DNA of 64,000 nt. Origin: Flavobacterium urocaniciphilum (GTDB lineage Bacteria; Bacteroidota; Bacteroidia; Flavobacteriales; Flavobacteriaceae). The notes beneath the pieces were generated by a model, which was not told the origin of the DNA, searched no databases, and worked only from the letters and a program-made list of their open reading frames with translations. A program made the translations under genes and the position numbers. The stretch spans positions 310,001 to 374,000 of the forward strand of contig NZ_FOEI01000002.1 of NCBI RefSeq assembly GCF_900110615.1. Reading direction: 5' to 3'. How positions within the stretch are numbered: the stretch's first letter is position 1; each line of letters starts with the position of its first letter. Below are positions 23,541 through 39,350 of this stretch, piece after piece.

Positions 23541-25286
23541 TTATTTTCTCTCTCCAATTTGTTGACGCCACATCGCATAGTATAATCCTTTACTGTCAAC
23601 CAAATCTTGGTGTTTACCTTGTTCTATAATTTTACCTTGTTCTAAAACAAAGATTTTATCAGCATGCATGATAGTAGATAATCTGTGAGCGATAAGTACA
23701 GTAATTCTGTTTTCATCGGATATATTTCGAATCGTACTATTAATTTCTTCTTCAGTAATAGAATCTAATGCTGAAGTAGCTTCATCAAAAATCAATAAAT
23801 TAGGATTTCGCAAAATGGCTCTGGCAATAGATAATCGTTGTTTTTCACCACCTGAAACTTTTATTCCACCTTCACCAATTGTGGTATTGATTCCGTTTTC
23901 AGCTCTGTTTAAAAGATTATGGCAACTGGCTTTATGTAAAGCATTTAAAAGTTCTTCATCTGTTGCGTTTGGCTTTACAAATAATAGGTTTTCTTTAATT
24001 GTACCGGAGAATAATTGGGCATCTTGGGTAACGAACCCTAATTGTTTTCTAACTTCTAATACATCCACTTTTTTCTCATCAATATTGTTGTAAGTAATAC
24101 TTCCAGTTTTAGGTTTGTACAATCCAACTAATAATTTTACTAATGTTGTTTTTCCAGCTCCAGAAGGCCCAACAAAGGCAACAGTTTCTCCTTTTTTAAT
24201 TTCAAAAGTGATGTTTTCAACCGCTTTAAAACTAGCAGATTGATGTTGAAAACTAACTTCATTAAACGCTAATTTTTCAATGACGCCAATTTTTGATGGA
24301 TTTTCAGGTTTGTATTCCGATTCTTTTTCTAATAATTGTTTGAAATTGTCTAACGATACTCTTGTTTCATTTTTTACAATGATAAATTGACTCATTTCTT
24401 GCAATGGATTAAAAATGAAGAAGGTAAAAAACGTCATCGTTAATAAATCTCCCACTACAATTTTACCTTGAAAAACGAAGTAATAAAGAGTAAAAACCAC
24501 TAAGGTACGCATGAAATGAACCGTTGTTCCTTGAATAAAACTCAAACTTCTGATGTAACGAATTTTTTGTAATTCTAATTTTAAGATTTTAAGCGTGTTA
24601 AGGTTTAAACGACTTTCTTCTTGATGCGTTAAACCCAAACTTTTAACCAATTCAATGTTACGTAAACTTTCTGTTGTAGCACCAGCAAGCGCATTGGTTT
24701 GAACCACAATTGATTTAGAAACTTCTTTGATTTTTTTACCTAAATACGAACTTACAAATCCGATAATAGGTGCAGTTACGATAAAGATTAAGGCTATTTT
24801 TACATCAATTCTTGCGATATATACAAACACAAAAATAAATCCAACAATAGTTTGAAATACTAAGGAAATGGAAAGATTGATTAATTTTTCAGAATCAATT
24901 CGTACTTTTTGAAGTTTGCTTAACGTTTCGCCACTTCTTTGATCTTCAAATTGTGCAAAAGGTAAGTCTAATGATTTTTTAATACCATCTGTATACATTT
25001 CAGCACCGGTTCGTTGAATAACAATGTTCGTAAAATAATCTTGAAAATTTTTAGTTATTCTAGAAATCATTGCAATGAAAATCGATAGTCCAAGCCAAAA
25101 TCCGACTGACTTTAAAAAGCCTATTTCATTTCCCTTATATTTAGCAATTCCAACACCGCAATCTTGCATTAATTTACCGGTAATAACCGAATCACTTAAG
25201 CTAAAACAAATATTCAAAGCGGCCATGAATAAAGCAATAAGTAATAAATATTTATGTTTTTGTAAGTATGAATAAAGTAACTTCAT
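23541..25286 (-). CDS. ABC exporter (MsbA/MdlB type, half-transporter)
   Basis: 581 residues. Six membrane helices lie in the first 310 residues (for example 13-33, 61-80, 140-158, 165-182, 261-279), followed by one ATP-binding domain with Walker A GPSGAGKT (373-380), Q-loop FVTQDAQLF, signature VSGGEKQR (477-484), Walker B LLIFDEATSALD (497-508) and the H-loop IAHRLST. The product would work as a homodimer in the inner membrane. The substrate is not evident; lipids, peptides and drugs are all carried by this class. The RidA-like gene follows in the same unit. Confidence 0.93.
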   Translation of the reverse strand: MKLLYSYLQKHKYLLLIALFMAALNICFSLSDSVITGKLMQDCGVGIAKYKGNEIGFLKSVGFWLGLSIFIAMISRITKNFQDYFTNIVIQRTGAEMYTDGIKKSLDLPFAQFEDQRSGETLSKLQKVRIDSEKLINLSISLVFQTIVGFIFVFVYIARIDVKIALIFIVTAPIIGFVSSYLGKKIKEVSKSIVVQTNALAGATTESLRNIELVKSLGLTHQEESRLNLNTLKILKLELQKIRYIRSLSFIQGTTVHFMRTLVVFTLYYFVFQGKIVVGDLLTMTFFTFFIFNPLQEMSQFIIVKNETRVSLDNFKQLLEKESEYKPENPSKIGVIEKLAFNEVSFQHQSASFKAVENITFEIKKGETVAFVGPSGAGKTTLVKLLVGLYKPKTGSITYNNIDEKKVDVLEVRKQLGFVTQDAQLFSGTIKENLLFVKPNATDEELLNALHKASCHNLLNRAENGINTTIGEGGIKVSGGEKQRLSIARAILRNPNLLIFDEATSALDSITEEEINSTIRNISDENRITVLIAHRLSTIMHADKIFVLEQGKIIEQGKHQDLVDSKGLYYAMWRQQIGERK

Positions 25287-25363
25287 TTCTAAAAATTTAT
25301 CCTACAAAAATAAGGAATAAAAAGTCTTACTGTATTTTTTAGGAAGTATTTAACTTGTTTTTG

Positions 25364-25371
25364 TACTTTTG
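25364..25371 (+). promoter_or_regulatory. -7 box for the GSCFA gene
   Basis: TACTTTTG, an exact TAnnTTTG box, 19 nt before the ATG at 25391. No clear TTG at -33. Confidence 0.5.
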
Positions 25372-25390
25372 ATTAAAGATAATAAGAACT

Positions 25391-26341
25391 ATGAATTTTC
25401 AAACGCAAATACCTATTTCTAAATCAGATTTTCCAATAGATTATTCTTCAAAAATAATTTCCTTTGGTTCTTGTTTTGCTGAAAATATGGGTGAGAAATT
25501 TGAATATTTCAAGTTTGAAAATGTGGTAAATCCATTCGGAATAATTTTCAATTCGGTTTCTATTGAAAAGTTAATTATAAGATGTATTCGCAAGCAATAT
25601 TTTACGGAAAACGATATCTTTCAACATAACGATTTATGGCATTGTTATGAAGTGCATTCGGAACTTTCAAATTCTAATAAAGAAGAATTTTTAACAACTT
25701 TGAACGAATTAATCGATTCCACTCATCAACAACTATTAGAATCAACACATATAATTATTACACTTGGAACTTCATGGGTGTATCGAAACATTGAATCTAA
25801 TGAAATTGTTGCCAATTGTCATAAAGTGCCGCAAAAACAATTTACTAAAGAATTACTTTCTGTAGCTCAAATTGAATCGAATCTTCAAAAGATACTTTCG
25901 GAAATTCAAACTATAAATTCGCATTGTAAATTTATTTTTACCGTTTCACCGGTTCGTCATATTAAAGACGGATTTATGGAAAATAACGTGAGTAAAGCGC
26001 ATTTGATTGCAGCTTTGAATTCTGTTGTCACATTGAGCTTGTCGAAGTGCAACTATTTTCCGAGTTATGAAATTATGATGGATGAATTACGCGATTATCG
26101 TTTTTATGCAGAAGATATGTTGCATCCAAATCAAACGGCAATTGATTATATCTGGATAAAGTTTTTCGAAAACTATGTTGCTGAAAAGGAATTCGGAACC
26201 ATGCAACAAGTTTGTGATATTCAAAAAGCGTTGCATCATAAACCATTTAATCCGAACTCGGAAAGTCACTTAAAGTTTTTAGAAAATCTGAATTCTAAAA
26301 TAACTTCAATTAAGAGTAAACTACCTCATATTCAATTTTAA
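25391..26341 (+). CDS. GSCFA-domain protein (SGNH-like hydrolase fold)
   Basis: 316 residues with the name-giving motif GSCFAENMG (26-34) and the conserved ITLGTSWVY and FTVSPVRHIKDGF blocks. The family is distantly related to SGNH/GDSL hydrolases; its substrate is unknown. No signal peptide. The segment VVTLSLSKC (about residues 213-221) is encoded by an imperfect palindrome (26029-26049) that looks like a dispersed repeat inserted in frame. The stop codon abuts the first AATACG-N8-CGTATT operator. Confidence 0.88.
   Translation: MNFQTQIPISKSDFPIDYSSKIISFGSCFAENMGEKFEYFKFENVVNPFGIIFNSVSIEKLIIRCIRKQYFTENDIFQHNDLWHCYEVHSELSNSNKEEFLTTLNELIDSTHQQLLESTHIIITLGTSWVYRNIESNEIVANCHKVPQKQFTKELLSVAQIESNLQKILSEIQTINSHCKFIFTVSPVRHIKDGFMENNVSKAHLIAALNSVVTLSLSKCNYFPSYEIMMDELRDYRFYAEDMLHPNQTAIDYIWIKFFENYVAEKEFGTMQQVCDIQKALHHKPFNPNSESHLKFLENLNSKITSIKSKLPHIQF
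26029..26049. repeat. In-frame palindromic repeat inside the GSCFA gene
   Basis: CACATTGA and TCGAAGTG form an imperfect 8-bp stem (one mismatch and one wobble) with a 5-nt loop. I recall the sequence CATTGAGCTTGTCGAAGTG as a dispersed element in Flavobacteriia, usually intergenic. Here it is translated as VTLSLSKC. Confidence 0.45.
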
Positions 26342-26391
26342 AAATACGCATTTTATCGTATTTCCTTCTGTATAGTTAAGTTGTAAGTTTG
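26342..26391 (+). promoter_or_regulatory. Operator 1 and promoter (AATACG-N8-CGTATT, TAAGTTTG)
   Basis: Perfect 7-bp arms AAATACG (26342-26348) and CGTATTT (26357-26363) with an 8-nt spacer, then TAAGTTTG (26384-26391). The palindrome centre is 38.5 nt upstream of the last base of the -7 box. There is no TTG at -33, where the palindrome overlaps, which fits an activator-dependent promoter. It serves the 26416 gene and possibly the PQQ-like gene. Confidence 0.75.
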
Positions 26392-26415
26392 TCTTGTAAC
26401 TATAACTAAAATCTT

Positions 26416-26787
26416 ATGCAATTTTTCAAAAATACTATTTGCATGATCTTATTTTTTCTTTCGTGTAATGAAGCTTTTTCTCAACGACCAGTTTTAACAG
26501 ATGAGGAAATTGTTTCAGAAACAGTAACTAAAGAAATTGATCAGGTTTTTCAATCTGATGATTTTTTAAAAAAGAAAAATAAAAAATTTGCAGATGTAAC
26601 TGGTAAAATGGTAATCGATATTTCGGTTATTCAAAGTGGTAAAGTAGCAACTTTTTTTAAAGTTGAGAGCGACATTAAAAACATTGATTTTATCGATTTT
26701 ATGTCTGAATACATTTTAGAACATAAATTCAAATTTAAACTTCAAAAAAAACAACGATATAAAATTCGTTATTCCGTAACATTCTAA
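26416..26787 (+). CDS. Small secreted protein of unknown function
   Basis: 123 residues with a signal peptide (about 1-22; a cysteine in ILFFLSCNEAF could be a lipobox, but the spacing to a second candidate cut at AFSQ is equally good). The mature part is a small alpha/beta domain (VTKEIDQVFQSDDFLKKKNKKFADVTGKMVIDISVI, DFIDFMSEYILEHKFKFKLQKKQRYKIRYSVTF). The end of it resembles the small TonB-C-like domains that appear in Bacteroidota, but I cannot confirm this. It is preceded by operator 1 and followed after 28 bp by the PQQ-like gene, with which it is probably cotranscribed. Confidence 0.7.
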   Translation: MQFFKNTICMILFFLSCNEAFSQRPVLTDEEIVSETVTKEIDQVFQSDDFLKKKNKKFADVTGKMVIDISVIQSGKVATFFKVESDIKNIDFIDFMSEYILEHKFKFKLQKKQRYKIRYSVTF

Positions 26788-26815
26788 AAAAAAAACTAAC
26801 TAAAAACGCAAGATT

Positions 26816-28639
26816 ATGAAAAAATTAAGTTCACAAGTAATGTTGTTTGTTTGTTTACTGACAACCGTTACTTCTTCAGCCCAATTTGGAAAATTAATAG
26901 ACAAAGTAAAAGGTGGTGGAGGTTCAAAAAAATCTGGAAGCTTTGCAGTAGCATGGGAATCAGAATTTGATAATAAAGCAAGTCGTTTAGCTGTTGCAGT
27001 TAATGATGGAGAATATATTTTAGGTACTGATGATAATTCAGCAACCGTATTAGATGCTACTGGTAATAAAGTTTGGAGTGGCGATTATAAAGACATCACA
27101 ACTAATAAAACGAATAAATGTGAATACCAATATATTATTCATAAAGGAAAAGGAAAAGGTGGTTATTTGTTTCTTTTTGATGCTCGAAAAATGGGAACTG
27201 ATAGAGTTGCAGTTATTGATATCGTTTCTGGAAAGGAAATGTGGAATTCTGAACAATATCAAAATTTAATACCTAAAGATGGAGATAATTCTGGTTCAGA
27301 TGATGGTGAATTAGAAACTGTTAAATACATTTTCGAATTGGATGCTTTTTTAATTTCTCAAAAAGAATCTGTCATTTTAGTAAAAGCAAATACAGGAGAA
27401 AAAATTTGGGAAACAAATAGATTTAAAGGTTCTGTTGGGAAATATATTTACGATGCACAACGCAATGAAATTATCATGATTAATTTCAAACCAACTGCTT
27501 TAGGAGCCTTATTTGCAGGTTTCAAAAACCAATTGGTTAAAATGAATGCTAAAAATGGTGAAATAGTATGGGAAGCAACTTTTACTGGATTCATTGAAAA
27601 AGAATTAGTTACACGTCGCGCTATTGTAGATTTATGGATTAAAGGTGATAAACTTTTCTTATACTTAAATGGTTTACAAGTTTATAACTTAAATAACGGT
27701 CAGAAACTTTGGGAAGCTATTTATGAAAATGATATGGAGAAAAGTAGTGGAAGTTCATTTTTAGGAAATAGATCTAGAAAAGGATTTTATAGAGTAATGG
27801 CAGATCCTTTATTTACTGATAATGCAGTTTATATAGTAATGTTAGGTAATCGTGACAGAACGAAATATATTGAAAAACACGACTTACAATCTGGAAAAGT
27901 TTTATGGACTTCAGAAAAAATTACAGGTGCTTTTTGTATGCCAAATATTTATTTAACGGGTGATAAAATAATGTGTCAAGTTGGTGGAAAAGTTGAAGTT
28001 CAAGAATGGAGATTAGAGAAAAAAGTAAATCCGTATGGTGGTGGTGAAACTCAAGAATGGGTGCCTTATATCTATTGGGATTATAAAACACAAAAAAATG
28101 GTGTTTTAGCGATTGATGATAAATCGGGAACGACTTCATGGCGTTCAGAAAAATTTGACAAACGTATAACTGATTTTGTTTTAGATGGCGATAAAACATT
28201 ATTTGTTGGAGATGGTGATCAATTTTATGGATACGATATTAAATCTGGAAATCAATTGTTTGATGTAAAACACAATGATGCAGGTGTAGGAAAAGCAACT
28301 GATGTAATCGATTTTAATGATAAAGTTGTTGTGCTTTCAGAAAAAGGATTAGCTTCTTACAATAAAAAAGATGGTTCTAGAGCTTATGCAACTGAGAAAA
28401 TAAAAGGAGTAGATTTCTTTTATAAAATTGGCGAAAATTACTTTTTAAGAGATCAACGCAATAGTAAAAATATTCTTCATGGAATTGATATGACAAATGG
28501 CGATTTAAAAGGTTCTGTAGAATCGAAAGGAAAAGGTGGAAGTCCTGAATATGGAAACGGTTTAGATGTGTCTGAAGATGGAGAGTTTATCTATGCTTTT
28601 AAAGGTAAAAAAGTTGAAAAAATTAAAATAAACAACTAA
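26816..28639 (+). CDS. Secreted PQQ-like beta-propeller protein
   Basis: 607 residues with a signal peptide (MKKLSSQVMLFVCLLTTVTSSAQ). The rest is a beta-propeller of PQQ-repeat type: blades end in short G-x-x-x-W motifs such as GNKVWSG, GKEMWNS, GEKIWET, GEIVWEA, GQKLWEA, GKVLWTS and GTTSWRS. Such propellers bind partners or ligands; there are no dehydrogenase catalytic residues that I can identify and no C-terminal sorting domain. Likely periplasmic. It belongs to the operator-controlled cluster by position behind the 26416 gene. Confidence 0.82.
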   Translation: MKKLSSQVMLFVCLLTTVTSSAQFGKLIDKVKGGGGSKKSGSFAVAWESEFDNKASRLAVAVNDGEYILGTDDNSATVLDATGNKVWSGDYKDITTNKTNKCEYQYIIHKGKGKGGYLFLFDARKMGTDRVAVIDIVSGKEMWNSEQYQNLIPKDGDNSGSDDGELETVKYIFELDAFLISQKESVILVKANTGEKIWETNRFKGSVGKYIYDAQRNEIIMINFKPTALGALFAGFKNQLVKMNAKNGEIVWEATFTGFIEKELVTRRAIVDLWIKGDKLFLYLNGLQVYNLNNGQKLWEAIYENDMEKSSGSSFLGNRSRKGFYRVMADPLFTDNAVYIVMLGNRDRTKYIEKHDLQSGKVLWTSEKITGAFCMPNIYLTGDKIMCQVGGKVEVQEWRLEKKVNPYGGGETQEWVPYIYWDYKTQKNGVLAIDDKSGTTSWRSEKFDKRITDFVLDGDKTLFVGDGDQFYGYDIKSGNQLFDVKHNDAGVGKATDVIDFNDKVVVLSEKGLASYNKKDGSRAYATEKIKGVDFFYKIGENYFLRDQRNSKNILHGIDMTNGDLKGSVESKGKGGSPEYGNGLDVSEDGEFIYAFKGKKVEKIKINN

Positions 28640-28753
28640 GCGTTTTTAGTTTGTTGGTTGAAGTGGGCTCTGAATTTATTCATGGCCCATTTCTGTTTGA
28701 AATGTATTGTTAACTAAATAAGTTTTTATACATTCGTTATAAATTTTAAGAAC

Positions 28754-29416
28754 ATGAACAATTCATTACAACATTCAAATTCAATTTTTAGTAAAATTTC
28801 GGAAGTTAGAAAATGGCTTTGGGCTATCGGATTTATTGTAGTGTTGTATTTGTTTTTTCAATTTTCAAATAAAAAAGAAGATACCAATGTAATTGAATAC
28901 GATACAGCTTTAATTCAACAACAGATAAAAAATGTTGGAAAATTGGTAGTTACTGAAGGTCATTTTTCTGAAGTACTAACGTATAAAGATCAAAAAAAAT
29001 ATTTGGGAGATTGGTTGTCTTTTGAAAAGAAAGCCATTGTGGTCATAAATGCTGATGTTACTGTAGGTTTCGATTTAAGTCAGGTTAAATTTGAAGTGGA
29101 TTCTATTCATAAAGTATTGAAAATTTCTAACCTTCCAAAAGAAGAAATAAAGATCAGTCCGGATTATAAATATTATAATATTGATCAAAGTACTTTTAAT
29201 GAATTTGAAGGTCAAGATTATAATAAAATCAATAAAATAGCTCGAGAAAATCTGAATAAGAAAATTAATGCTTCAACATTAAAAACTGATGCTAAGAAAC
29301 GATTGAAAGAAGAGCTTTTTAAATTATATTCCTTTGTAGAAATTATGAAATGGAAAGTAGAAATTGAAGGAGAAACCGTTTCCAATCAACAAGAAATTCA
29401 AAAATTTTTACATTAA
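28754..29416 (+). CDS. DUF4230 membrane-anchored protein
   Basis: 220 residues with one membrane helix (about 19-40, WLWAIGFIVVLYLFFQF) and a DUF4230-type domain (VGKLVVTEGHFSEVLTYKD, KKAIVVINADVTVGFDLSQVKFEVD, KISNLPKEEIKISPDYKYYNIDQS). The role of the family is not known. It has no AATACG operator of its own; the 114-bp gap upstream has a weak hairpin (GTGGGC/GCCCAT, 28664-28690) and a TTTATA/TATAAA palindrome (about 28725-28743). Operator 2 begins inside the last codons of this gene or just after them. Confidence 0.8.
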   Translation: MNNSLQHSNSIFSKISEVRKWLWAIGFIVVLYLFFQFSNKKEDTNVIEYDTALIQQQIKNVGKLVVTEGHFSEVLTYKDQKKYLGDWLSFEKKAIVVINADVTVGFDLSQVKFEVDSIHKVLKISNLPKEEIKISPDYKYYNIDQSTFNEFEGQDYNKINKIARENLNKKINASTLKTDAKKRLKEELFKLYSFVEIMKWKVEIEGETVSNQQEIQKFLH

Positions 29417-29464
29417 ATACGACAAATTTCGTATTGTACTAAAAGCATAATTGGTTCAATTTTG
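29415..29464 (+). promoter_or_regulatory. Operator 2 and promoter
   Basis: AATACG (29416-29421), 8-nt spacer, CGTATT (29430-29435), then CAATTTTG (29457-29464), a -7 box with one mismatch. Centre to last base of the box is again 38.5 nt. It drives the 29482 gene and probably the sensor kinase. Confidence 0.72.
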
Positions 29465-29481
29465 TAGAAAACTTATGCTTT

Positions 29482-29757
29482 ATGATTTTCACTTTTGCCA
29501 TATTGATATTTTTATTGTTTTTGTGGATTTATTGTTTGTTGAAAAACAACAATCAAATCAGATCAGAACATTATAAGAAGATAAGTGAACTTAAAGCAAC
29601 AATTTATTCGTTGCATTTAAAAGAAAAACAATTGAACGAAAAGGTTTTAATTAGTAAAAATTTTGATGTTACTTTCAAAAATGATTTCAAATTAATTGGT
29701 GCTGAAATTGTTTCATTGCAAGAATTTTTTTTAAAGTTAATTTCTGAAAAAAAATAA
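29482..29757 (+). CDS. Small membrane protein with coiled-coil tail
   Basis: 91 residues. One N-terminal membrane helix (2-20, IFTFAILIFLLFLWIYCLL) is followed by a cytoplasmic-type coiled coil (about 25-91, EHYKKISELKATIYSLHLKEKQLNEKVL). No family recognised. It starts 18 nt after the -7 box of operator 2 and ends 26 bp before the sensor histidine kinase, so it is probably the first gene of the kinase unit. A role in tuning the kinase at the membrane is a guess from position. Confidence 0.65.
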   Translation: MIFTFAILIFLLFLWIYCLLKNNNQIRSEHYKKISELKATIYSLHLKEKQLNEKVLISKNFDVTFKNDFKLIGAEIVSLQEFFLKLISEKK

Positions 29758-29783
29758 GTAACTTTATAAAAAATGCAGATACA

Positions 29784-31664
29784 ATGATTAAAAAAATTAC
29801 TTGTTTTATTTTCGTTTTATTTTCTTTGCAATCCTTTTGTCAAAATTTGCAAAAAATTTTAGTCAAAGCATATACTTCCCAGGATTCTTCAGATTATTAT
29901 TTTAAAAAAGCCAAAAAAGCTATCGTTTCTGTAGCAGATGAAGGCGAGTTTTATTTTTGTAAAAGCGCTCGTCAAGCTGATTTTGGTTCTGCAGATAGTG
30001 CAATTTATTACGCTAATATTGCTATCCCTAAACTTAAAGAAGGAAAAAGTCATAATTCGTTATTAACAGTTTATAATAATTTAGGTCATATTTATAACGG
30101 TAAAGGTCAATATGACAAAGCTATTAACTATAGAATTGAAGCGTTAAAAATAGCTGAAAGTCAGAAAAAAACTAATTATATTGGACATTTATATACTTAT
30201 ATTTCTTATGATTATCATGATTTTGAAAATTATGAAAAAGGAATTTTTTATGGTAAAAAAGCGCTTCAAACATTTACCAATGATAAAGCTTCAAAAGGTA
30301 CAGATTATCATTCAGCATTAAATGCTATTGCGATTAATTATGATGATTGGAATAAACCTGAATTGGCTTTGTATTATCATAAATTAAATTTCAAATATGT
30401 AAAAGGAAAAGATACGTTAATACTAGATAACACGTATAATAACATTGGAAATACACTTTTAAAACAGAAGAAATTCGCGGAAGCAAAAAAGTGGATAGTA
30501 CGTTCCAAAAAAATTATCGATTATAAAGTCAAAATGAAAATGCAAACGGTTGCAGATTATGAATATGCAACTTATTATACCAATTTAGCAACCATTGCAT
30601 CTGAATTAAATGAGTTTGAAGATGCCGACAAGTATTTCGATTTAGCTTTTAAATATTCAAAAAAATGTAATGTAGCAGAGAAACTTCGCGATTATTATTT
30701 TCAGAAAGCGAAATACAATAAGAAAAGAAACAATCTTTCTGAAACGATAAAAGAACAGGAAAATTACATTAAACTTAGAGATTCAATATACAATGTTGAG
30801 CGAGATGAAGCATTGGCAAAAATGGAAGTCAAATACCAAACAGAGAAAAAACAGAAACAACTTTTAATTGCCAAAAATCAAATTTTAGAAAAAGAAGAAG
30901 AAAATGAAAAGAAAACGTATTGGTTAATTTTTGCATCATTTTTAATCCTTTCTAGTGTAATTATTGGATATTTGTTTTTCCGTCAGCAAAAGCTTAAAAA
31001 CAAACAACAAGAGCATGAATTTGAATTGAAAAATGCCATTGCAGCAATTGAAACTCAAAATAAATTGCAAGAACAACGGTTAACAATTTCGAGAGATTTG
31101 CATGATAATATTGGTGCTCAATTAACTTTTATCATTTCTTCCGTAGAAAATTTAAAATTTGGATTTCCGAATATAGATGATAAAATTTCAAATCATCTTA
31201 GTAAAATAAGCAACTTTACAAAAGATACAATTGTAGAGCTTCGTGATACCATTTGGGCCATGAATAGCCATGATATTAATATCGTTGATTTGCGTAGTCG
31301 CTTATTGAATTTTATTGAAAAAGCTCAAATTTCATCCTTACAAACTAATTTTAAATTTACTATTGACGATTCGTTAAGTCAAATGAAAATTTCTTCTTTA
31401 CAAGGTATTAATATTTATAGAGTGATACAAGAAGCAGTAAATAATGCTATTAAACATGCAAATGCTCAAAATATTGAAATTTCTGCTAAAGAAATTAATA
31501 ATGCATTAGTGTTTGATATTTTTGATGATGGAGTTGGATTTAAATTTGATGATATTGTTCAAGGAAATGGACTTCATAACATGAAAAAGCGAATAGAAGA
31601 AATTGGCGGACAATTTCAATTGAATTCAACCGAAAAAGGAACTCATATAACTATTACAATTTAA
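29784..31664 (+). CDS. Sensor histidine kinase with periplasmic TPR domain (HisKA_3 type)
   Basis: 626 residues. A signal peptide (1-20) is followed by a TPR-rich sensor region (about 35-330; for example YNNLGHIYNGKGQYDKAINYRIEALKIA), a membrane helix (379-399), a coiled coil and a HisKA_3 dimerisation domain with the phospho-accepting His440 in RDLHDNIGAQL. The ATP-binding domain has the N-box EAVNNAIKHA (550-559), G1 DDGVGF (581-586) and G2 GNGLHNM (594-600). In this class the partner is a NarL/LuxR-type response regulator, which is the gene at 31824. The input to the TPR region is unknown. Confidence 0.93.
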   Translation: MIKKITCFIFVLFSLQSFCQNLQKILVKAYTSQDSSDYYFKKAKKAIVSVADEGEFYFCKSARQADFGSADSAIYYANIAIPKLKEGKSHNSLLTVYNNLGHIYNGKGQYDKAINYRIEALKIAESQKKTNYIGHLYTYISYDYHDFENYEKGIFYGKKALQTFTNDKASKGTDYHSALNAIAINYDDWNKPELALYYHKLNFKYVKGKDTLILDNTYNNIGNTLLKQKKFAEAKKWIVRSKKIIDYKVKMKMQTVADYEYATYYTNLATIASELNEFEDADKYFDLAFKYSKKCNVAEKLRDYYFQKAKYNKKRNNLSETIKEQENYIKLRDSIYNVERDEALAKMEVKYQTEKKQKQLLIAKNQILEKEEENEKKTYWLIFASFLILSSVIIGYLFFRQQKLKNKQQEHEFELKNAIAAIETQNKLQEQRLTISRDLHDNIGAQLTFIISSVENLKFGFPNIDDKISNHLSKISNFTKDTIVELRDTIWAMNSHDINIVDLRSRLLNFIEKAQISSLQTNFKFTIDDSLSQMKISSLQGINIYRVIQEAVNNAIKHANAQNIEISAKEINNALVFDIFDDGVGFKFDDIVQGNGLHNMKKRIEEIGGQFQLNSTEKGTHITITI

Positions 31665-31667
31665 GTT

Positions 31668-31717
31668 AAATACGATAAATTACGTATTTACTCACATAAT
31701 CTATTCTGCTACATTTG
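31668..31717 (+). promoter_or_regulatory. Operator 3 and promoter
   Basis: Perfect 7-bp arms AAATACG (31668-31674) and CGTATTT (31683-31689) with an 8-nt spacer, then TACATTTG (31710-31717). Spacing is 38.5 nt. It precedes the 31-residue peptide and the response regulator, which implies autoregulation if that regulator binds here. Confidence 0.78.
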
Positions 31718-31731
31718 GATTTTAATCCAGT

Positions 31732-31827
31732 ATGAAAAAAGCTAGAATAGAAATAGTTGTCCTAATTGTTGTAGTAATAATTATATTGCTAAACTTATAT
31801 ATTTATATAAATACATTTTCAAAATGA
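31732..31827 (+). CDS. 31-residue membrane peptide overlapping the response regulator start
   Basis: ATG to TGA, 31 codons. The peptide starts MKKARIE, is then almost entirely hydrophobic (about 20 residues, rich in valine, isoleucine and leucine) and ends NTFSK: a single membrane helix with a positive cytoplasmic end. Its stop overlaps the start of the response regulator as ATGA, so translation would be coupled. It starts 15 nt after the operator-3 -7 box, exactly where a first gene should be. No family recognised. Confidence 0.6.
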   Translation: MKKARIEIVVLIVVVIIILLNLYIYINTFSK

Positions 31828-32465
31828 TAAAAATTGCAATTGTTGACGATAATACTTTTCTACAAAAAGCGATCCAAGAAAAATTATCTTTTTTTAATGA
31901 AATTGAAATCAAATTTACCGCAGTTGAAGGTGTAGATTTGATGCAAAAACTGGATAAAAATCATAATATCGATTTAATTCTAATGGATATTGAAATGCCA
32001 AAAATGAATGGTATTGAAGCCACAGAATTAGTGAAAAATAAATTTCCACATATTAAAATAATCATGCTGACTGTTTTTGATAATGATGAGAATATTTTTA
32101 AAGCAATTAAAGCCGGAGCGGATGGATATTTTTTAAAAGAAGTGAATCCACAAGAATTATTTAACGGCATACAAGATACTTTAGCGGGTGGTGCCGCCAT
32201 GACACCTTCAATTGCTTTAAAAACCTTAAAATTGTTAAGAGAACCTATTGTTTTCGAATCTGAAAATGAAGATATAGTTTTAACAACAAGAGAAATTGAA
32301 GTTCTAGAACAACTGAGTAAAGGTTTGAAATATCAAGTTATAGCAGAAAACCTTTTTTTGTCTGTAGGGACAATACGAAAACATGTAGAAAATATTTATA
32401 ATAAACTACAGGTGCATAATAAATTGGAAGCAGTTCAAAAAGCAAAAAACAACAAACTGATTTAA
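31824..32465 (+). CDS. NarL/LuxR-type response regulator
   Basis: 213 residues. Receiver domain 1-120 with the acidic pair Asp8-Asp9, phospho-accepting Asp55 (LILMDIEMP), Thr83 and Lys105, all in the expected places. A GerE/LuxR helix-turn-helix spans about 151-207 (LTTREIEVLEQLSKGLKYQVIAENLFLSVGTIRKHVENIYNKL). It is the natural partner of the HisKA_3 kinase upstream. The five AATACG-N8-CGTATT palindromes of this cluster are the best candidate binding sites; binding is inferred, not seen. One of them lies 135 nt upstream of this gene. Confidence 0.94.
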   Translation: MIKIAIVDDNTFLQKAIQEKLSFFNEIEIKFTAVEGVDLMQKLDKNHNIDLILMDIEMPKMNGIEATELVKNKFPHIKIIMLTVFDNDENIFKAIKAGADGYFLKEVNPQELFNGIQDTLAGGAAMTPSIALKTLKLLREPIVFESENEDIVLTTREIEVLEQLSKGLKYQVIAENLFLSVGTIRKHVENIYNKLQVHNKLEAVQKAKNNKLI

Positions 32466-32469
32466 TTAA

Positions 32470-32518
32470 TATACGTATTTATACGTATTTTTTTGTATTT
32501 AGGCATGCTATAAATTTG
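32470..32518 (+). promoter_or_regulatory. Operator 4 and promoter
   Basis: TATACG (32470-32475; one mismatch to the consensus arm), spacer TATTTATA, CGTATT (32484-32489), then TAAATTTG (32511-32518). Spacing is 38.5 nt. An in-frame TTG of the next gene (32516) lies inside the -7 box, which rules it out as a start. Confidence 0.75.
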
Positions 32519-32533
32519 TTAAAACTTTATATT

Positions 32534-34918
32534 ATGAAAAAACATTATCTTTTTTTTTTATTAACTGCATTATTGGGTTTCAGCCAGCAGCCTACTTTGG
32601 TTAAAGATGTAACTTCTACATTAAACCCAAATGCATTGTCTACTTCTCAAATTCCATGGAATAATTGTGTGTGGAATGGTAAAGCTTTTTATTCTGGTTC
32701 AGGTTCAAACAGATTAGTTGTAACTGATGGAACGAATGCAGGAACAGTAGGGATTTCTAATCTTGGAGGTGAAACAATTTCTAAAATAATTCCAGCACAA
32801 GATTTTGTATATGTAATTACTTCCGTTACAACTTTTACTCCATCTATTTCTGCAACTGATAAGATTTGGAAAACGGATGGAACTCCTGCAGGAACTGTTT
32901 TAGTGAAGACTTTAGGTACTACAAGTTTATCTGAAATTAATATTTATTATAGCGTTGAAGGTCATAAAAAAAATTATTCTTTAGATGGAAATGTTCTTTA
33001 TTTTTCAGCCAAAGATGCTACAAATGGAGTTGAAATTTGGAGGACTGATGGAACAACTATAGGTACATATATTGTTAAAGATATTATGACCGGAATTTCT
33101 GGTAGCGCTCCAGCTGGATTTTGTAAAATTGGATCTGATGTGATTTTCAAAGCTTCTTCTGTTGGAAATCCTGGTAAATTATGGAAAACTGATGGGACTG
33201 ATATTGGAACTTCTCAGATTCCAGTAACGGAGCCTTTCTATATAGTGAATTCAGATATGGTTAAGTTGGGTAATAAAGTAGTTTTCTTTGCTCATAATAC
33301 TGTTGACGGATATGAACCATATGTTAGTGATGGAACCGCATCTGGTACATTTATGTTGAAAAATATTAATCCTGGTGGAAATTCATTACCAACACAAGCT
33401 CAAGGATTACATTTAAAAGTAGTTGGGAATTATTGTTTTTTTATTGCAAATGATGGTGTAGATTTTGGACTTTGGAGAACTGATGGTACAACTGCAGGAA
33501 CGATAAAACTTAACTCAGAAAATAATAACATTAGTGATTCTGCATATTCTGCAGTAGATAATGAAAAATTATGGTACATAAATTATAATTTTTCTGGATC
33601 AGGAGCCAATTCTAAATTGATTGTTACTGATGGTACAATTGAAGGTACTAGTGTGGTGCATTCTACTTTAAGTTATCCTCAAAATTTAAAAGTTTATAAA
33701 GGTTCTGTATGGATGCAATCGCGCGACTTAGGTTCGCCAGCAAATGCAGAAGTATGGAGAAGTGACGGTTTACAAGTGAATACAAATTTAGCTTTCGATG
33801 TTGGAAATGGTGCTTTTAGTTCAAATCCAAACGGATTCTTTGAATTAAATGGGAAATTATATTTCTTTGGTGAATATAATTCTAATAATAATTTTGGATT
33901 ATTTCAATTTAATGGTGATTTCACTTTTAATGGAAGTGTTAATTCAGATTGGAATAATAAAAATAATTGGAATAGTACTTTAGTGCCAAATTCTTCTGAT
34001 AATGTAACAATACCTTCAGGATATTCAATTTCTACATCGGCAAGTGCATATGCTCGAAATATTAGTGTTGCTTCCCCCATAAACCTTAATGTTGGAAATT
34101 TGAATATTTATGGAACAGCTTCTTTAAATAATTCAGCAAAAATTACCTTAAATAATAATAGTTTAATTTTAAAAGGAAAAACAGCATCTGCAACCGGAGA
34201 TTTAACTTCATATATCGTTACAAACGGAACAGGAAAAGTTTCGGTTGAAAATGTTGATGTAGCTAGAGGAATAGTAAATTTACCTATTGGAACATCTACT
34301 ACTTTTAATCCAGTTTTATTGACCAATTCGGGTGTAAATGATACTTTTTCTGCACGAGTTGAGACGGGTATATCATCTACTTATTCAGGAGAAATACCAG
34401 GAAGTTTATTAACTAATAATGCAGTTAATGCTACTTGGTTTATAAATGAAGCTACAGCAGGTGGTAGTAATGTTAGTTTAGGTTTGCAATGGAACACTTC
34501 TCAGGAACTTTCTGGATTTGATAGGAATAATGCAAAAATGGGTCATTTTAATGGTGTTTTATGGGATGGATTTTCGGGTGCTTTATCTGGTACAGACCCA
34601 TATACTTATTTGGTTAATGGAATTTCAACATTTTCACCGTTTAGTATACAAAACAATAGTGTGCTTTCTGAGGAAGAGTTTAATGTTACTACTAGTTTTA
34701 TTAAATTATTTCCAAATCCTTCAAATGGAGAGTTTTCAATAAATATATCTGAAGATTTAAGAGGAAGTAATGTTTCAATTTACAATTTGATAGGGCAAAA
34801 AGTTATGAGTTTTGAAATGAATGATTTAATTACGAATACTAATTTAAATTCGGGAATTTATATTATTTCAATTATTAAAGAAGGTAAAAAGTTTACTGAA
34901 AAAATTATTATTAAATAA
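32534..34918 (+). CDS. ELWxxDGT-repeat protein, T9SS cargo (type A sorting domain)
   Basis: 794 residues from the ATG at 32534. A signal peptide (MKKHYLFFLLTALLGFSQQ) is followed by about seven ELWxxDGT-like repeats (KIWKTDGTPAGT, EIWRTDGTTIGT, KLWKTDGTDIGT, LWRTDGTTAGT, EVWRSDG), a propeller-like surface domain, then a beta-rich middle region starting WNNKNNWNSTLVPNSSDNVTIP. The last 75 residues are a type A T9SS sorting domain (IKLFPNPSNGEFSINI, NLIGQKVMSFE, LNSGIYIISIIKEGKKFTEKIIIK). The protein should cross the outer membrane and stay at the surface or be released. Directly under operator 4. Confidence 0.9.
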   Translation: MKKHYLFFLLTALLGFSQQPTLVKDVTSTLNPNALSTSQIPWNNCVWNGKAFYSGSGSNRLVVTDGTNAGTVGISNLGGETISKIIPAQDFVYVITSVTTFTPSISATDKIWKTDGTPAGTVLVKTLGTTSLSEINIYYSVEGHKKNYSLDGNVLYFSAKDATNGVEIWRTDGTTIGTYIVKDIMTGISGSAPAGFCKIGSDVIFKASSVGNPGKLWKTDGTDIGTSQIPVTEPFYIVNSDMVKLGNKVVFFAHNTVDGYEPYVSDGTASGTFMLKNINPGGNSLPTQAQGLHLKVVGNYCFFIANDGVDFGLWRTDGTTAGTIKLNSENNNISDSAYSAVDNEKLWYINYNFSGSGANSKLIVTDGTIEGTSVVHSTLSYPQNLKVYKGSVWMQSRDLGSPANAEVWRSDGLQVNTNLAFDVGNGAFSSNPNGFFELNGKLYFFGEYNSNNNFGLFQFNGDFTFNGSVNSDWNNKNNWNSTLVPNSSDNVTIPSGYSISTSASAYARNISVASPINLNVGNLNIYGTASLNNSAKITLNNNSLILKGKTASATGDLTSYIVTNGTGKVSVENVDVARGIVNLPIGTSTTFNPVLLTNSGVNDTFSARVETGISSTYSGEIPGSLLTNNAVNATWFINEATAGGSNVSLGLQWNTSQELSGFDRNNAKMGHFNGVLWDGFSGALSGTDPYTYLVNGISTFSPFSIQNNSVLSEEEFNVTTSFIKLFPNPSNGEFSINISEDLRGSNVSIYNLIGQKVMSFEMNDLITNTNLNSGIYIISIIKEGKKFTEKIIIK

Positions 34919-34940
34919 TTTGTGTTTGTGATAAGTATAG

Positions 34941-34990
34941 AAAATACGTATTTATACGTATTTTCTTTTGTTTTATGAAGATAATATTTG
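34941..34990 (+). promoter_or_regulatory. Operator 5 and promoter
   Basis: Perfect 8-bp arms AAAATACG (34941-34948) and CGTATTTT (34957-34964), spacer TATTTATA identical to operator 4, then AATATTTG (34983-34990). The spacing is 37.5 nt, one less than the others, and the -7 box is weaker. Confidence 0.7.
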
Positions 34991-35066
34991 TCAATATTTA
35001 ATTTTTCATTAGGTTTAATTTAAATATTAAAATAATACACAAAATTTAACCAAGCTATTTATATAT

Positions 35067-37142
35067 ATGATTAAAAAAATTTATTATTTATTATTGTCAT
35101 TAATGACAACAATAGTTTACAGTCAAAAAGTATTATTTGAAGACAATTTTGATACCAATGCCAATGGTTGGGCACTTTCAAATGACGGTTATAATGTAAC
35201 AGTTGATAAAGGTAAGATGTTTATTGAAAATACGCATCTTCAAAATTCAAAATGGAGTTTATATGACGTTTCATTTGATGCAGGAACGACAGATTTTGAT
35301 GTAGAAGCAACTATTCAATTAGAGTCTTCAGTTGCCGATAATGCTTATTACGGAATTGTACTTTGTGGTTATTCAGATAATTCAGATTATAGGGTTTTTC
35401 AACTATCTGCGAATAGATATTTTCAAATTTATCATTACTATAACAAAGAGTTTCATTATTTAAAAGAATGGGAAAAAAATGATATAGTTAAAGGGAAAGG
35501 AAATAAAAATCTTTTACGAATAGAAAAACGTGCTCATTTAACAAAGTTTTTTATTAATGGAACTATGGTTTTTCAAACGTCTGAAAATTTATATTATGGT
35601 TCAAAATTTGGGTTTATTCTTGACAAACAAACATCAATTTCAGTAGATAATTTAAAAATTACTCAAGTTCCTTTTAGTATTGATGTTGTGGAATCTTTCA
35701 ATCCAAATATTAAAATGACAAAAATGCCAGAATCAATTTCTTCTAAAGAGTTTGAGGAAGCAAATCCGGTTATTTCTCCAGATGGTAAAACATTGTTTTG
35801 TGCTAGAAAAGATTGTAGTTTAAATTTAGATTCTACAAAAGATGATGTTTGGTTTAGCAGTAAAGATGCAAACGGAAATTGGTCTGAAATGAAAAATTTA
35901 GGTAGACCTATCAATAACAATGATTATAACTTTGTAATATCATGTTCACCAGATAATAATACGCTTTTAATTGGAAATACTTATAATAGCGATGGTTCTG
36001 TTAAAGGTCCAGGTTTGTCAATAGCGAGTAGAAGTATTAGTGGTTGGAATGTTCCACAAGAAGTTGTAATGGAAGATTATCAGAATAAAAATAAATTTGT
36101 GGCTTATTTTTTAACTAACGACAATAAACACTTACTTATTTCTGTAGAACGAGATGGAGGTTATGGTTTTAAAGATCTATACATTTGCGAATTAAAACCT
36201 GATAATACTTGGTCTAAGCCTAAAAATTTAGGAAATGTTATCAATACTTTTGAAGAAGAAACGAATCCATTTTTAGCATCCGATGGTAAAACACTTTATT
36301 TCTCTAGTAAAGGTCATCCTGGATATGGAGCATTCGATTTATTTGTATCGAAACGATTAGATGATTCTTGGACGAATTGGTCGAAACCTCAAAATTTAGG
36401 AAATGTGATTAATTCTGTAGATTATGAATTAAGTATTTTCTTATCGGCAAAAGGAGATAAAGCTTATATTGGTAAATCGAGTGATATTTATGAAGTAGAT
36501 AATTCGGTAAAAATTGATCCTGTTGTTTTAATTAAAGGAAAAGTATACGATAATAAAACAAAGAAAACACTAAGTGTGCCAATTGTATATAATAATTTAA
36601 AAAACAATACAAATTCTGGAAAGGCTATTTCAAATCCTGTAGACGGAAGTTATTCAATTGTATTGCCATTTGGTCAGAAATATAGTTTTATGGCTGAAAA
36701 AGAAGGGTATTATGCCGTAACTGAAAACATTGATATAACAAACCTAAATGAATATAAAGAAATTGAAGTGGATTTATATTTGAGTCCGATTGAAAAAGGA
36801 GAAGTTATTCGATTGAATAATATATTCTTCGATTCTGGGAAGTATGACTTATTATCGGAATCATATGCAGAATTAGATAAATTACATGCAATTTTATTGA
36901 ATAACCCAAGTATGAAAATTGAAATATCAGGTCATACTGATGCTGTAGGTTCAGATACAGATAATATGAGTTTGTCTAATAATAGAGCAAATGCAGTAAT
37001 GCAATATTTATTAAAGAAAGGAGTGAATGGAAATCGTTTATCTTCGAAAGGTTATGGAGAAACTAAGTTTATAGCCACAAACGATACAGAAAAAGGTAAA
37101 CAAAAAAACAGACGTGTAGAATTTCTGATTTTAGATTTATAA
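35067..37142 (+). CDS. PD40/OmpA-family outer-membrane protein
   Basis: 691 residues. Signal peptide (MIKKIYYLLLSLMTTIVYSQ), then a lectin/LamG-like sandwich (about 25-205, FEDNFDTNANGWALSNDGYNV, SVDNLKI), PD40-type propeller blades (NPVISPDGKTLFCAR, NPFLASDGKTLYFSSKGHPGYGAFDLF), a carboxypeptidase-like domain (about 490-570) and a C-terminal OmpA domain (about 580-690) with the peptidoglycan-binding motif GHTDAVGSDTDNMSLSNNRA and NRRVEF. It would be held to peptidoglycan at the outer membrane. Operator 5 lies 77 nt upstream and a perfect hairpin terminator follows. Confidence 0.9.
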   Translation: MIKKIYYLLLSLMTTIVYSQKVLFEDNFDTNANGWALSNDGYNVTVDKGKMFIENTHLQNSKWSLYDVSFDAGTTDFDVEATIQLESSVADNAYYGIVLCGYSDNSDYRVFQLSANRYFQIYHYYNKEFHYLKEWEKNDIVKGKGNKNLLRIEKRAHLTKFFINGTMVFQTSENLYYGSKFGFILDKQTSISVDNLKITQVPFSIDVVESFNPNIKMTKMPESISSKEFEEANPVISPDGKTLFCARKDCSLNLDSTKDDVWFSSKDANGNWSEMKNLGRPINNNDYNFVISCSPDNNTLLIGNTYNSDGSVKGPGLSIASRSISGWNVPQEVVMEDYQNKNKFVAYFLTNDNKHLLISVERDGGYGFKDLYICELKPDNTWSKPKNLGNVINTFEEETNPFLASDGKTLYFSSKGHPGYGAFDLFVSKRLDDSWTNWSKPQNLGNVINSVDYELSIFLSAKGDKAYIGKSSDIYEVDNSVKIDPVVLIKGKVYDNKTKKTLSVPIVYNNLKNNTNSGKAISNPVDGSYSIVLPFGQKYSFMAEKEGYYAVTENIDITNLNEYKEIEVDLYLSPIEKGEVIRLNNIFFDSGKYDLLSESYAELDKLHAILLNNPSMKIEISGHTDAVGSDTDNMSLSNNRANAVMQYLLKKGVNGNRLSSKGYGETKFIATNDTEKGKQKNRRVEFLILDL

Positions 37143-37143
37143 G

Positions 37144-37178
37144 AAAAAGGGTTAACTTAATTAAGTTAACCCTTTTTT
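37144..37178. terminator. Terminator after the PD40/OmpA gene
   Basis: A perfect long palindrome around AATT (AAAAAGGGTTAACTT and its complement) with a T run. It closes the regulated cluster and faces the rhodanese gene on the other strand. Confidence 0.9.
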
Positions 37179-37227
37179 AAATATAAAAATATGTGTTGAG
37201 GATGTATTATCCCGGTTTGGTTGTTGT

Positions 37228-37536
37228 TTATAATTTAGATTCTAAAGATTGCCATCCGCCACCATTCATAGATTCAATTCCATTGCGGTTTAAAATTGCA
37301 TTGGCTTGAGCGCTTCTCATGCCACTTTTGCAACATACGATTACAGGTTTATTCAATTTTTTAATATCGGAAATTTTAGTTTCGATAATTTGTAAAGGAA
37401 TGTTTTTTGAATTTTTAATATGACCCGATGCGAACTCTTCGTAGGTTCTTACATCAATAATAATTGCATCTTTTTGAGTAAATTCTGCTATGCTTTTTGA
37501 TTTGTCTCCAAATCCTAATAAATCTAAAATGCCCAT
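37228..37536 (-). CDS. Rhodanese-like domain protein
   Basis: 102 residues from the ATG at 37536; an upstream in-frame start would precede the promoter box. A single rhodanese domain with active-site loop CCKSGMRS (catalytic cysteine is the second of the pair CC) and the typical DVRTYEEFASGHIKNSKNIP. Such proteins carry persulfide sulfur. The N-terminal GILDLLGFGDKSK is a short lead-in common in Bacteroidota. Monocistronic, cytoplasmic. Confidence 0.9.
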   Translation of the reverse strand: MGILDLLGFGDKSKSIAEFTQKDAIIIDVRTYEEFASGHIKNSKNIPLQIIETKISDIKKLNKPVIVCCKSGMRSAQANAILNRNGIESMNGGGWQSLESKL

Positions 37537-37547
37537 AACTTTTTTTT

Positions 37548-37555
37548 CAAAGATA
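37548..37555 (-). promoter_or_regulatory. -7 box for the rhodanese gene
   Basis: TATCTTTG on the minus strand, 11 nt before the ATG at 37536, again an almost leaderless message. Confidence 0.55.
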
Positions 37556-37592
37556 TGGGCATTAGATATAAAACTAAGTAACAAAAGTTACG

Positions 37593-39350
37593 TTATACGT
37601 TTTCCTTTTCGAAAATTAATTGCAAACCGTCTGTGATTAAATGCGCTACTTCAGGTCGTTCCATTTTTACTTTTTCTAAATGATTTAAAACTTTTTCAAC
37701 TAATTCTGAATTGTGTTCTTTTTCGGCTAATTCAGCAATTTCAACACTTAATAACCAATCTTTAGGATGGTTTGAAGAAACAGCAGCAAATGCTTCTTTT
37801 AAAGTAATTTCAGAACTATTGTTTTCTCTGTAGTTTCTTATGTTTTTATATAAGTTTTCTAATTCTAATCTTTCAGCTGAAAATTTAGGTTTAATAGTTG
37901 TTGTTGAAGGTACATGAGTAATCATATCGAAACTATTCACGTCTGCAGGACCGGAAAAAGCGGAAGTAACTTTTTTACCAACAGCCATATCGTAAATTCC
38001 CCATTCAGGTGCAAACAATACAGTGTCACCATGAGTAACTGTACAATTTTTGAATTTGATTAATAAAATTTCACCTTGTAAATTTCTTGTCCCAGTAACA
38101 ATTTCTCCAGAAACTTTAATGTTTCCTTCAAATTCTAAAGTGATTTGCTCGCCTTCATAAATGTCGTAAGCGCGTAAATCTCTTGGCCCCATATCTTCAA
38201 TGGCTAAATTGATTCCTTTTAGCATTCCGATAGGTGATCCGAAACCTTCAGCATGAGCTTCTGTTCCATGACTCACTAATTCTTTTTCTCTATAAGCTAA
38301 AGCAGTTTTTCCAGTAGTTTGAATGTAAACTGGTTTTCCTTCGTTTTCAATTACATTCGTAAATACACCTGAAATTTGTAAACCTGTACTTAATTCAATT
38401 GTTCCTAAAGCTTTAGATTTAATAAGTTTTTGAATCCCAGATAAACCACCAGTTCTTAAGGCCATTTTGTTGGCAAATTCTTCTAATACAGAACTTAATT
38501 GTGCGAAATCTGGCGTTACAAAAAGTTGAGGTTGAGGTTTTGTGATGTCGAAACTCTGATCGGCAGCAGAAATATCATAAGGTAATTTCTTTACATTATC
38601 GGTCATACACCAAGCGCTTTCCCCAATTGAAGAAAGTAAACCGGCACCATAAATTTTAGGATTATCTACAGTTCCAATTAAACCATATTCAACAGTCCAC
38701 CAATGTAAATTTCTGATTTTAGACATTTCAGATAATTCACCCATGTTATTTTGTAGAAAATCTACTTGTTCTTCAGCAGCTTTAATTTCCTCTTCTGGTG
38801 TTCCTTCAGCTTCTTTTAGAATAGAAAGTAAACGAACAGCTTCGTATAATTCATAATCTCTCGCAGATGAAATGGCTTTACATCCAATTTCTCCAAATCT
38901 ACGTAAATATTCTGCATATTCCGGATTGGCAATAATAGGAGCGTGGCCAGCACCTTCATGAATAATATCTGGAGCAGGAGTGTATTCTATATTTTCTAAT
39001 TGGCGAATATCGCAAGCAATTACTAAAACATTATACGCTTGAAATTCCATAAAAGCACTTGGTGGAATAAATCCGTCAACGGCAACAGCCGCCCAACCAA
39101 TTTCTTTTAAAATTCGGTTCATTCCGTACATATTCGGAATGTTTTCAATCTCTAATCCTGTTTTTTCTAATCCTTCTAAGTATGATTTGTGAGCAACTTT
39201 TGATAGATAATCAACGTTTTTACGCATTACATAACGCCAAACTGCTTGATTAATTGGAGTGTAATCAGCGTAATCTTGAGGTTTAATAAATTGTTTTAAA
39301 TGCGCTGGAAGTCTGTCTATCAGTGCGTTGCTTTCAAAATGCGTTTCCAT
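37593..39350 (-). CDS. Aromatic amino acid hydroxylase (phenylalanine 4-monooxygenase type), long form
   Basis: 585 residues. The first about 290 residues are the pterin-dependent hydroxylase domain, with the iron ligands His131 and His136 (IIHEGAGHAP) and Glu221 (WWTVEYGLIG). The second half (about 300-585) is an extra region absent from the about 280-residue bacterial PhhA; it has beta-rich segments (QISGVFTNVIENEGKPVYIQTTG, ISGEIVTGTRNLQGEILLIKFKN) and a helical end. Expected reaction is phenylalanine to tyrosine with tetrahydrobiopterin and oxygen. No pterin dehydratase gene is adjacent. Confidence 0.92.
   Translation of the reverse strand: METHFESNALIDRLPAHLKQFIKPQDYADYTPINQAVWRYVMRKNVDYLSKVAHKSYLEGLEKTGLEIENIPNMYGMNRILKEIGWAAVAVDGFIPPSAFMEFQAYNVLVIACDIRQLENIEYTPAPDIIHEGAGHAPIIANPEYAEYLRRFGEIGCKAISSARDYELYEAVRLLSILKEAEGTPEEEIKAAEEQVDFLQNNMGELSEMSKIRNLHWWTVEYGLIGTVDNPKIYGAGLLSSIGESAWCMTDNVKKLPYDISAADQSFDITKPQPQLFVTPDFAQLSSVLEEFANKMALRTGGLSGIQKLIKSKALGTIELSTGLQISGVFTNVIENEGKPVYIQTTGKTALAYREKELVSHGTEAHAEGFGSPIGMLKGINLAIEDMGPRDLRAYDIYEGEQITLEFEGNIKVSGEIVTGTRNLQGEILLIKFKNCTVTHGDTVLFAPEWGIYDMAVGKKVTSAFSGPADVNSFDMITHVPSTTTIKPKFSAERLELENLYKNIRNYRENNSSEITLKEAFAAVSSNHPKDWLLSVEIAELAEKEHNSELVEKVLNHLEKVKMERPEVAHLITDGLQLIFEKENV

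Follow-up and report, generated by a model that had tools for sequence, protein, structure and literature searches.

LuxR acts as a class II activator at the lux box, a 20-bp palindrome near position -42.5, features shared with the arrangement proposed here. Operators of the NarL class consist of two inverted heptamers that are 2 bp apart (7-2-7), as set out in the available part of PMC4549865. Here, we analyzed a stretch of 64,000 nucleotides from Flavobacterium urocaniciphilum (contig NZ_FOEI01000002.1, positions 310,001 to 374,000; hereafter the window), in which the palindrome AATACG-N8-CGTATT recurs five times. As an earlier note on this DNA had reported, all five copies lie upstream of genes in a cluster that encodes its own histidine kinase and a NarL/LuxR-type response regulator (RR). 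We posit, with a probability of about 0.85, that the palindrome serves as operator for the RR encoded at 31824, which is predicted to bind it and to activate the cluster, including its own gene.

Unlike LuxR, the RR carries a receiver domain and not a homoserine-lactone domain, and the letters of the lux box differ from those of the palindrome. The best-scoring solved structures by sequence were those of VraR from Staphylococcus, to which the receiver and GerE domains align over nearly the full length, while phylum, targets, and promoter type differ. The RR shares the architecture of NarL from Escherichia coli, with structure 1a04 aligning to RR residues 4-204. All five sites read TACGNNN-NN-NNNCGTA with TAC at their outer ends and in this resemble NarL sites, whose inverted heptamers, 2 bp apart, start with TAC and end with GTA (PMC4549865, available part). 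The heptamer differs in its G at position 4 from the engineered narG site TACCCCT given in the same part of that paper, and the RR would differ from NarL in acting on a Bacteroidota promoter and on a small regulon that is confined to its own cluster in this genome. The earlier note had described the operator as new-looking. The form itself is not foreign, given the NarL layout (as far as PMC4549865 is available), while no description of this operator, of the regulator, or of the small RNA discussed below was noticed in open-licence papers, a partial coverage that is not proof of absence.

The five palindromes are located on the forward strand, all with spacers of 8 nt, and four of them are exact, just as had been claimed. 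These are copy 1 (26343..26362, AATACG-CATTTTAT-CGTATT), copy 2 (29416..29435, AATACG-ACAAATTT-CGTATT), which overlaps the stop codon of the DUF4230 gene, copy 3 (31669..31688, AATACG-ATAAATTA-CGTATT), which precedes the regulator gene and is proposed to serve autoregulation, and copy 5 (34943..34962, AATACG-TATTTATA-CGTATT), which is also terminator-like as RNA, with a 12-bp stem and a T-rich tail. Copy 4 (32470..32489, TATACG-TATTTATA-CGTATT) has a single mismatch in the left arm. The spacers had been described as differing from copy to copy except for the one common to copies 4 and 5; the common spacer stands, but the spacers are not free, as each half shows a bias at its three inner bases across relatives.

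Searches were carried out with the 10-bp core ATACG-N8-CGTAT and with the full form, the 12-bp palindrome AATACG-N8-CGTATT. With up to one mismatch, the core showed eight matches in the window versus 0.75 expected, and none of 100 shuffles reached eight. The three extra matches are located within coding sequence (30420 and 38830) or overlap copy 4 (32481). Across the genome (2,848,114 bases, 23 contigs) the exact 12-bp palindrome occurred four times, each time in the cluster, compared to once for the reversed control pattern, and the confinement asserted for the window thus holds for the whole genome. When one mismatch was allowed, 16 places were found versus 10 for the reversed control, so isolated copies of this kind elsewhere are at noise level and the cluster copies alone stand out.

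The Bacteroidota -7 element is given as TAnnTTTG in the available part of PMC7366714. Such an element follows on the forward strand 22 bp past operator 1 (TAAGTTTG, 26384..26391), operator 2 (CAATTTTG, 29457..29464, with one mismatch to TAnnTTTG), operator 3 (TACATTTG, 31710..31717), and operator 4 (TAAATTTG, 32511..32518), and a -7-like element with one mismatch lies 21 bp past operator 5 (AATATTTG, 34983..34990). At the base rate of the window, the chance of finding at least four of five sites with such an element at +22 and no more than one mismatch is 2e-7, for an offset that was picked post hoc. The operator lies upstream, with 31.5 bp from its centre to the -7 element, and would be centred near -43 from the transcription start if the -7 element sits at its usual place. 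The position is similar to that of NarL in activated promoters, -40/-49 at napF and -38/-47 at yeaR (PMC4549865, available part). A site at a fixed position adjoining or overlapping the -33/-35 region, as is characteristic of class II activation, was thus seen at the five copies, and likewise at 132 of 169 sites in relatives, which have the element at exactly +22. A scan for sigma-70-type promoters showed no excess, with 62 matches compared to a shuffle mean of 67.6. The exact composite of operator and -7 element at +22 occurred four times genome-wide, namely as copies 1-4, versus 0 for the control; at up to two mismatches there were 11 versus 9. Two other genomes of the same genus (5.3 and 5.4 Mb) contained neither the RR nor the composite, and a single bare palindrome was present in one of them.

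The RR gene (31824..32465, forward strand) encodes a receiver (Response_reg, 1.9e-24) followed by a GerE/LuxR helix-turn-helix domain (GerE, 4.7e-16), which is the architecture of the NarL/FixJ type. The phosphorylation residues D8, D9, D55, T83, and K105 are present, and D9, D55, T83, and K105 are invariant across 16 aligned orthologues. Among nine scanned proteins of the cluster, of which two had no Pfam match, the RR alone has a DNA-binding domain. Within its own genome it was the only RR match at E<=1e-40, in a search that scored 7 of 33 first-look candidates. A histidine kinase of the HisKA_3 type is encoded nearby (29784..31664, forward strand), displaying a signal-peptide-like start, TPR repeats, a hydrophobic segment at 377-400, HisKA_3 with an LHDN box, and a HATPase domain; judging from gene position, it is the probable partner of the RR. 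Between operator 3 and the RR gene, inspection by eye showed a hydrophobic open reading frame (ORF) of 31 codons (31732-31827), the stop of which overlaps the RR start (ATGA), as in translational coupling.

Confidence in the proposed operator function derives mainly from a survey of related loci and from the co-occurrence of RR and composite. For the survey, 79 named loci (1,437,873 bases in total) were chosen by RR similarity alone, not by motif, and the best-matching named relatives were mostly Flavobacterium records. These loci contained 169 exact core sites spread over 74 of them, while 20 first-order Markov resamples of the set yielded a mean of 0.45 and a maximum of 2 sites, and the reversed pattern yielded 0. 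With both strands considered, the element YANNTTTR occurred 133 times at offset 22 and no more than 7 times at any other offset from 1 to 60; on the strand of the RR it lies at +22 for 132 of the 169 sites and at +21 for 7. Site centres fell outside ORFs of at least 120 aa in 162 of 169 cases, though such ORFs make up 87% of the sequence. Chance origin of the sites was rejected on the genome, window-shuffle, composite, and 79-locus controls. Among 20 loci taken down the RR match list, again not by motif, 15 had an exact core and 19 a core with up to one mismatch. The gene order alaS-GSCFA-(insert)-kinase-RR, often continued by DUF4230 and rhodanese genes, recurred in many of 40 neighbourhoods, and a kinase match was found upstream of the RR in all 40, immediately so in most.

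In order to relate the regulator to its proposed sites across the family, the composite ATACGN8CGTATN22YANNTTTR was surveyed in 397 family genomes. RR matches at E<=1e-40 were present in 105 of them, and 97 were counted as having orthologues (at least 57% identity, near whole length, E<1e-70). The composite had 408 hits in 148 genomes versus 8 reversed-control hits (the control being summed by eye). It was present in 89 of the 97 genomes with the RR and in 59 of the 300 without (Fisher odds ratio 45, p 1e-38, the latter nominal because the genomes are related), so the predicted co-occurrence is borne out. Sites in genomes lacking the regulator had been named as a finding that would count against it. 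On its face this finding was made in the 59 genomes, of which 46 have a second regulator (RRb, see below) and 13 are unexplained; in the loci read, variant operators cluster near the RRb gene. Within 200 bp after the GSCFA gene, 27 of 33 RR loci had an exact site and 31 of 33 one with up to one mismatch, and no site with fewer than 3 of 10 core mismatches was found there in seven of seven RR-less genomes from 6 genera. Together with the mostly intergenic position of the sites, their presence in 74 of 79 RR loci, and mostly one promoter distance, this upholds the idea of a local regulon with the RR of the cluster as its binder. By eye, a DUF4230-like gene directly follows GSCFA in three of the seven RR-less genomes (L336, L337, L338), and the signalling module may therefore be a cassette that some genomes carry between these two genes and others lack. 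As a marker, the bare palindrome is not diagnostic, with at least one copy in 220 of the 397 genomes, and the composite was rejected as a marker of this RR alone because RRb has related sites beside it.

The inner bases of the operator vary with the regulator. RR residue 182 marks the start of the recognition helix (LSV-G-TIRKH), and the second inner base of the half-site is C in 77 of 80 cases with S182, in 14 of 18 with A182, and in 80 of 368 with G182, a few loci being counted twice. When counted by locus with identical proteins taken once, C was found in 21 of 21 with S182 or A182 and in 20 of 86 with G182. This count covers 107 of 117 RRs, those without an exact site being left out; several of the S-type loci left out have GCA-type inner bases plus arm mismatches. 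Residue 182 covariation was rejected as independent proof for want of independent changes; with few of them, the match between residue and inner base is supportive.

The sites, their confinement in the genome, their conservation, the mostly fixed spacing, and the co-occurrence with the RR were computed, while binding, membrane topology, phosphorylation, activation over repression, start sites, and the nature of the signal are predictions. The sequence evidence for a functional operator with its promoter geometry is very strong, and the RR is strongly supported as the putative binder. We propose that the kinase senses an envelope or periplasmic signal, with its TPR part probably beyond the membrane, and that it would phosphorylate the RR. 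A dimer of the RR would then occupy TACGNNN-NN-NNNCGTA at about -43, in the place of a -33 contact, and recruit RNA polymerase as a class II activator. Five units are the predicted targets. One comprises the 26416 and propeller genes and another the small-protein and kinase genes, while the remaining three encode the RR, the type IX cargo protein, and PD40-OmpA; activation of its own gene by the RR would constitute positive feedback. To our knowledge, an operator has been defined for few two-component regulons of Flavobacteriia. Here, an operator, a promoter layout, and a target set are defined that recur across genera, and the composite is specific enough for regulon prediction genome by genome; the same search revealed the regulator-linked tandem small RNAs described below.

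Several observations weigh against this proposal. Regulator binding and target activation are deduced by comparing sequences. In the window, the -7 element of copy 2 is weak, and copy 5 has a spacing of +21 and may double as a terminator. Among the relatives, YANNTTTR is missing from both +21 and +22 on the RR strand at 30 of 169 sites, and 5 of 79 loci lack an exact core site; L317, L321, and L324 show no site in the stretch examined, which in two of them reaches only 1.7 kb upstream of the RR. The 13 composite-bearing genomes already mentioned have neither RR nor RRb at the cut-offs used, and an exact composite is missing from 8 of the 97 RR genomes. In five of these eight, the operators carry one or two arm mismatches, with the -7 element at 22 (the two-mismatch sites being given without a chance level), and three (G142, G144, G329) show no site. 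The RR-less GSCFA control is small, with six of its seven genomes already free of the composite when chosen, and some of the 33 RR loci with GSCFA were picked partly by motif. Finally, residue 182 changes about 5 times on the tree, with 2 supported independent pairs, too few for significance.

A regulator encoded elsewhere in the genome might bind the sites, with the RR merely being one of its targets. The composite in 59 of 300 RR-less genomes, including the 13 also without RRb, would fit this explanation, as would the outer half-site ATACG shared with RRb, which makes cross-binding possible. We consider it improbable, since none of the other scanned proteins, nine in all with the RR, has a DNA-binding domain (two being without a Pfam match), since RR and composite co-occur and the site after GSCFA is absent from the seven RR-less genomes (a biased choice), and since the inner bases follow the RR subtype. 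Somewhat less probable still is that the RR binds and represses, its dimer obstructing polymerase near -43. Position alone is no proof of activation, and NarL does both (PMC4549865, available part). The usual fixed spacing of 22 bp, however, leaves the -7 element free, as for polymerase contact, and in the same part of that paper the sites of the activated promoters napF and yeaR lie at the upstream positions given above, while the repressing 7-2-7 site of frdA lies at the start (-4/+6). Least probable of all is a role as RNA hairpins, either terminators or attenuators, after stop codons, for although the sites follow shortly past upstream ORFs (131 of 165 lie within 60 bp, with a median of 16 bp), all five copies fold (-4 to -12.2 kcal/mol), and at least five T occur in the next 8 nt at 58 of 169 sites, such a T tract is absent at 111 of 169, copy 5 is the only one of the five to pass a terminator scan for a G+C-rich stem with T tract, the arm sequence recurs and not just the pairing (exact arms being the search criterion, though), and a terminator would have no need of a fixed +22 to a promoter element. 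The hairpin was hence rejected as main role and is a possible second role for copy 5.

The genes of the cluster, all on the forward strand, are preceded by a GSCFA gene (25391-26341). The first encodes a 123-aa protein (26416..26787) with a signal-peptide-like start and no Pfam match, followed, according to the domain scan, by a PQQ_2/BamB-like beta-propeller protein (26816..28639) and a DUF4230 protein (28754..29416). A 91-aa protein with one hydrophobic segment (29482..29757) heads the kinase unit. Downstream of the RR are a secreted protein (32534..34918; the ORF tool places its start at TTG 32516) with seven DGTxxGT-type repeats and a type IX secretion C-terminal domain, and an outer-membrane protein with PD40 and OmpA domains by domain scan (35067..37142).

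The families encoded downstream of the sites in the 79 loci were grouped by BLAST, and each was named from one member. Most frequent are a family of small membrane-protein-like products (29 sites in 29 loci), similar in make-up to the 91-aa protein (29482), a DUF6252-type lipoprotein (28 sites in 26 loci, Pfam), and a protein with an FGE-sulfatase domain (20 sites in 19 loci, Pfam). The RR itself follows 19 sites. By eye, we further assigned a family like the 26416 protein (13 of 79 loci), an outer-membrane-barrel-like protein (11), the kinase (10), proteins with a type IX-like tail (10 sites in 8 loci), and PD40-OmpA (3); after 4 of 169 sites there was no ORF meeting the criterion. The regulon looks like a set of secreted and envelope proteins together with its own signalling genes. 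Genome G375 has nine composite hits over several contigs (C76, C122, C168, C199) and no site in its 11.6-kb RR stretch (L317), which covers 1.7 kb upstream of the RR, and its regulon may be dispersed.

RRb is likewise a receiver-GerE regulator, with the helix SSP-R-TVEKHRSN, and was found in 126 of the 397 genomes at E<=1e-60, though at this cut-off not in the genome of the window. The 30 best RRb loci contain 78 core sites within 1.5 kb of the RRb gene; of their 156 halves, 102 have TAG as the inner half and 20 have CAC. Among the family genomes, though not in the window, we observed tandem small-RNA-like arrays, at L255:6922-8050 (nine sites) and also in L256, L257, L260, and L261. The array loci adjoin RRb, an aspartyl-protease-like gene, and odhA/odhB-like genes (odhA/odhB by eye). 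Most units comprise an operator (for example ATACGTAG-NN-CTACGTATT), 22 bp, a -7 element, and a stretch of about 70 nt that contains a conserved 5' hairpin with the loop region TTAGGGAG and a terminator-like hairpin. They are spaced 138 to 542 bp apart, mostly less than 320, and some last units resemble leaders of the following gene. By eye, CTATTA was often seen about 5 bp past the -7 element in both operator classes (GSCFA-downstream promoters L076-L115 and class-b units L255-L305), which suggests a common initiation sequence.

An alignment of 25 selected units showed double-sided changes in 12 of 19 predicted pairs. The small-RNA model built from the unit alignment matched in 109 of the 397 genomes, with no match in the genome of the window. 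Of the 126 RRb genomes, 82 had a match, as did 65 of the 67 whose RRb is closest; the other 27 matching genomes lack RRb at the cut-off. The small RNA would be transcribed, and RRb would be the regulator responsible, a logic for which GacA with RsmY/Z and the Qrr RNAs are precedents. In Rfam, four array loci returned only a tRNA above gathering and no match over threshold for the small RNA, and positions 25000-38000 of the window returned two matches below gathering and none above. Two small-RNA stretches and one class-b operator form, searched as text in open-licence papers, gave no match, which is not proof of absence.

Taken together, a family of NarL-type regulators may exist in Flavobacteriaceae whose operators have the same outer half-site ATACG at 22 bp from the -7 element and are told apart by their inner bases, with a tandem small RNA fired by RRb; we put this forward tentatively, as somewhat short of even odds. 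In this proposal the residue at the helix start would match the inner bases, G with A/T, S or A with C, and R (in RRb, aligned by eye) with TAG/CAC. If true, it would represent a small readable protein-DNA code together with a two-component cascade centred on a small RNA. A third operator type, ATACGTGTTAGTACGTAT or similar, also with the -7 element at +22, was observed at L262:40, L263:6964, and L264:6009, where it adjoins a sugar-metabolism operon with, by eye, phosphoglucomutase-like, phosphofructokinase (PFK), and glyceraldehyde-3-phosphate dehydrogenase (GAPDH) genes.

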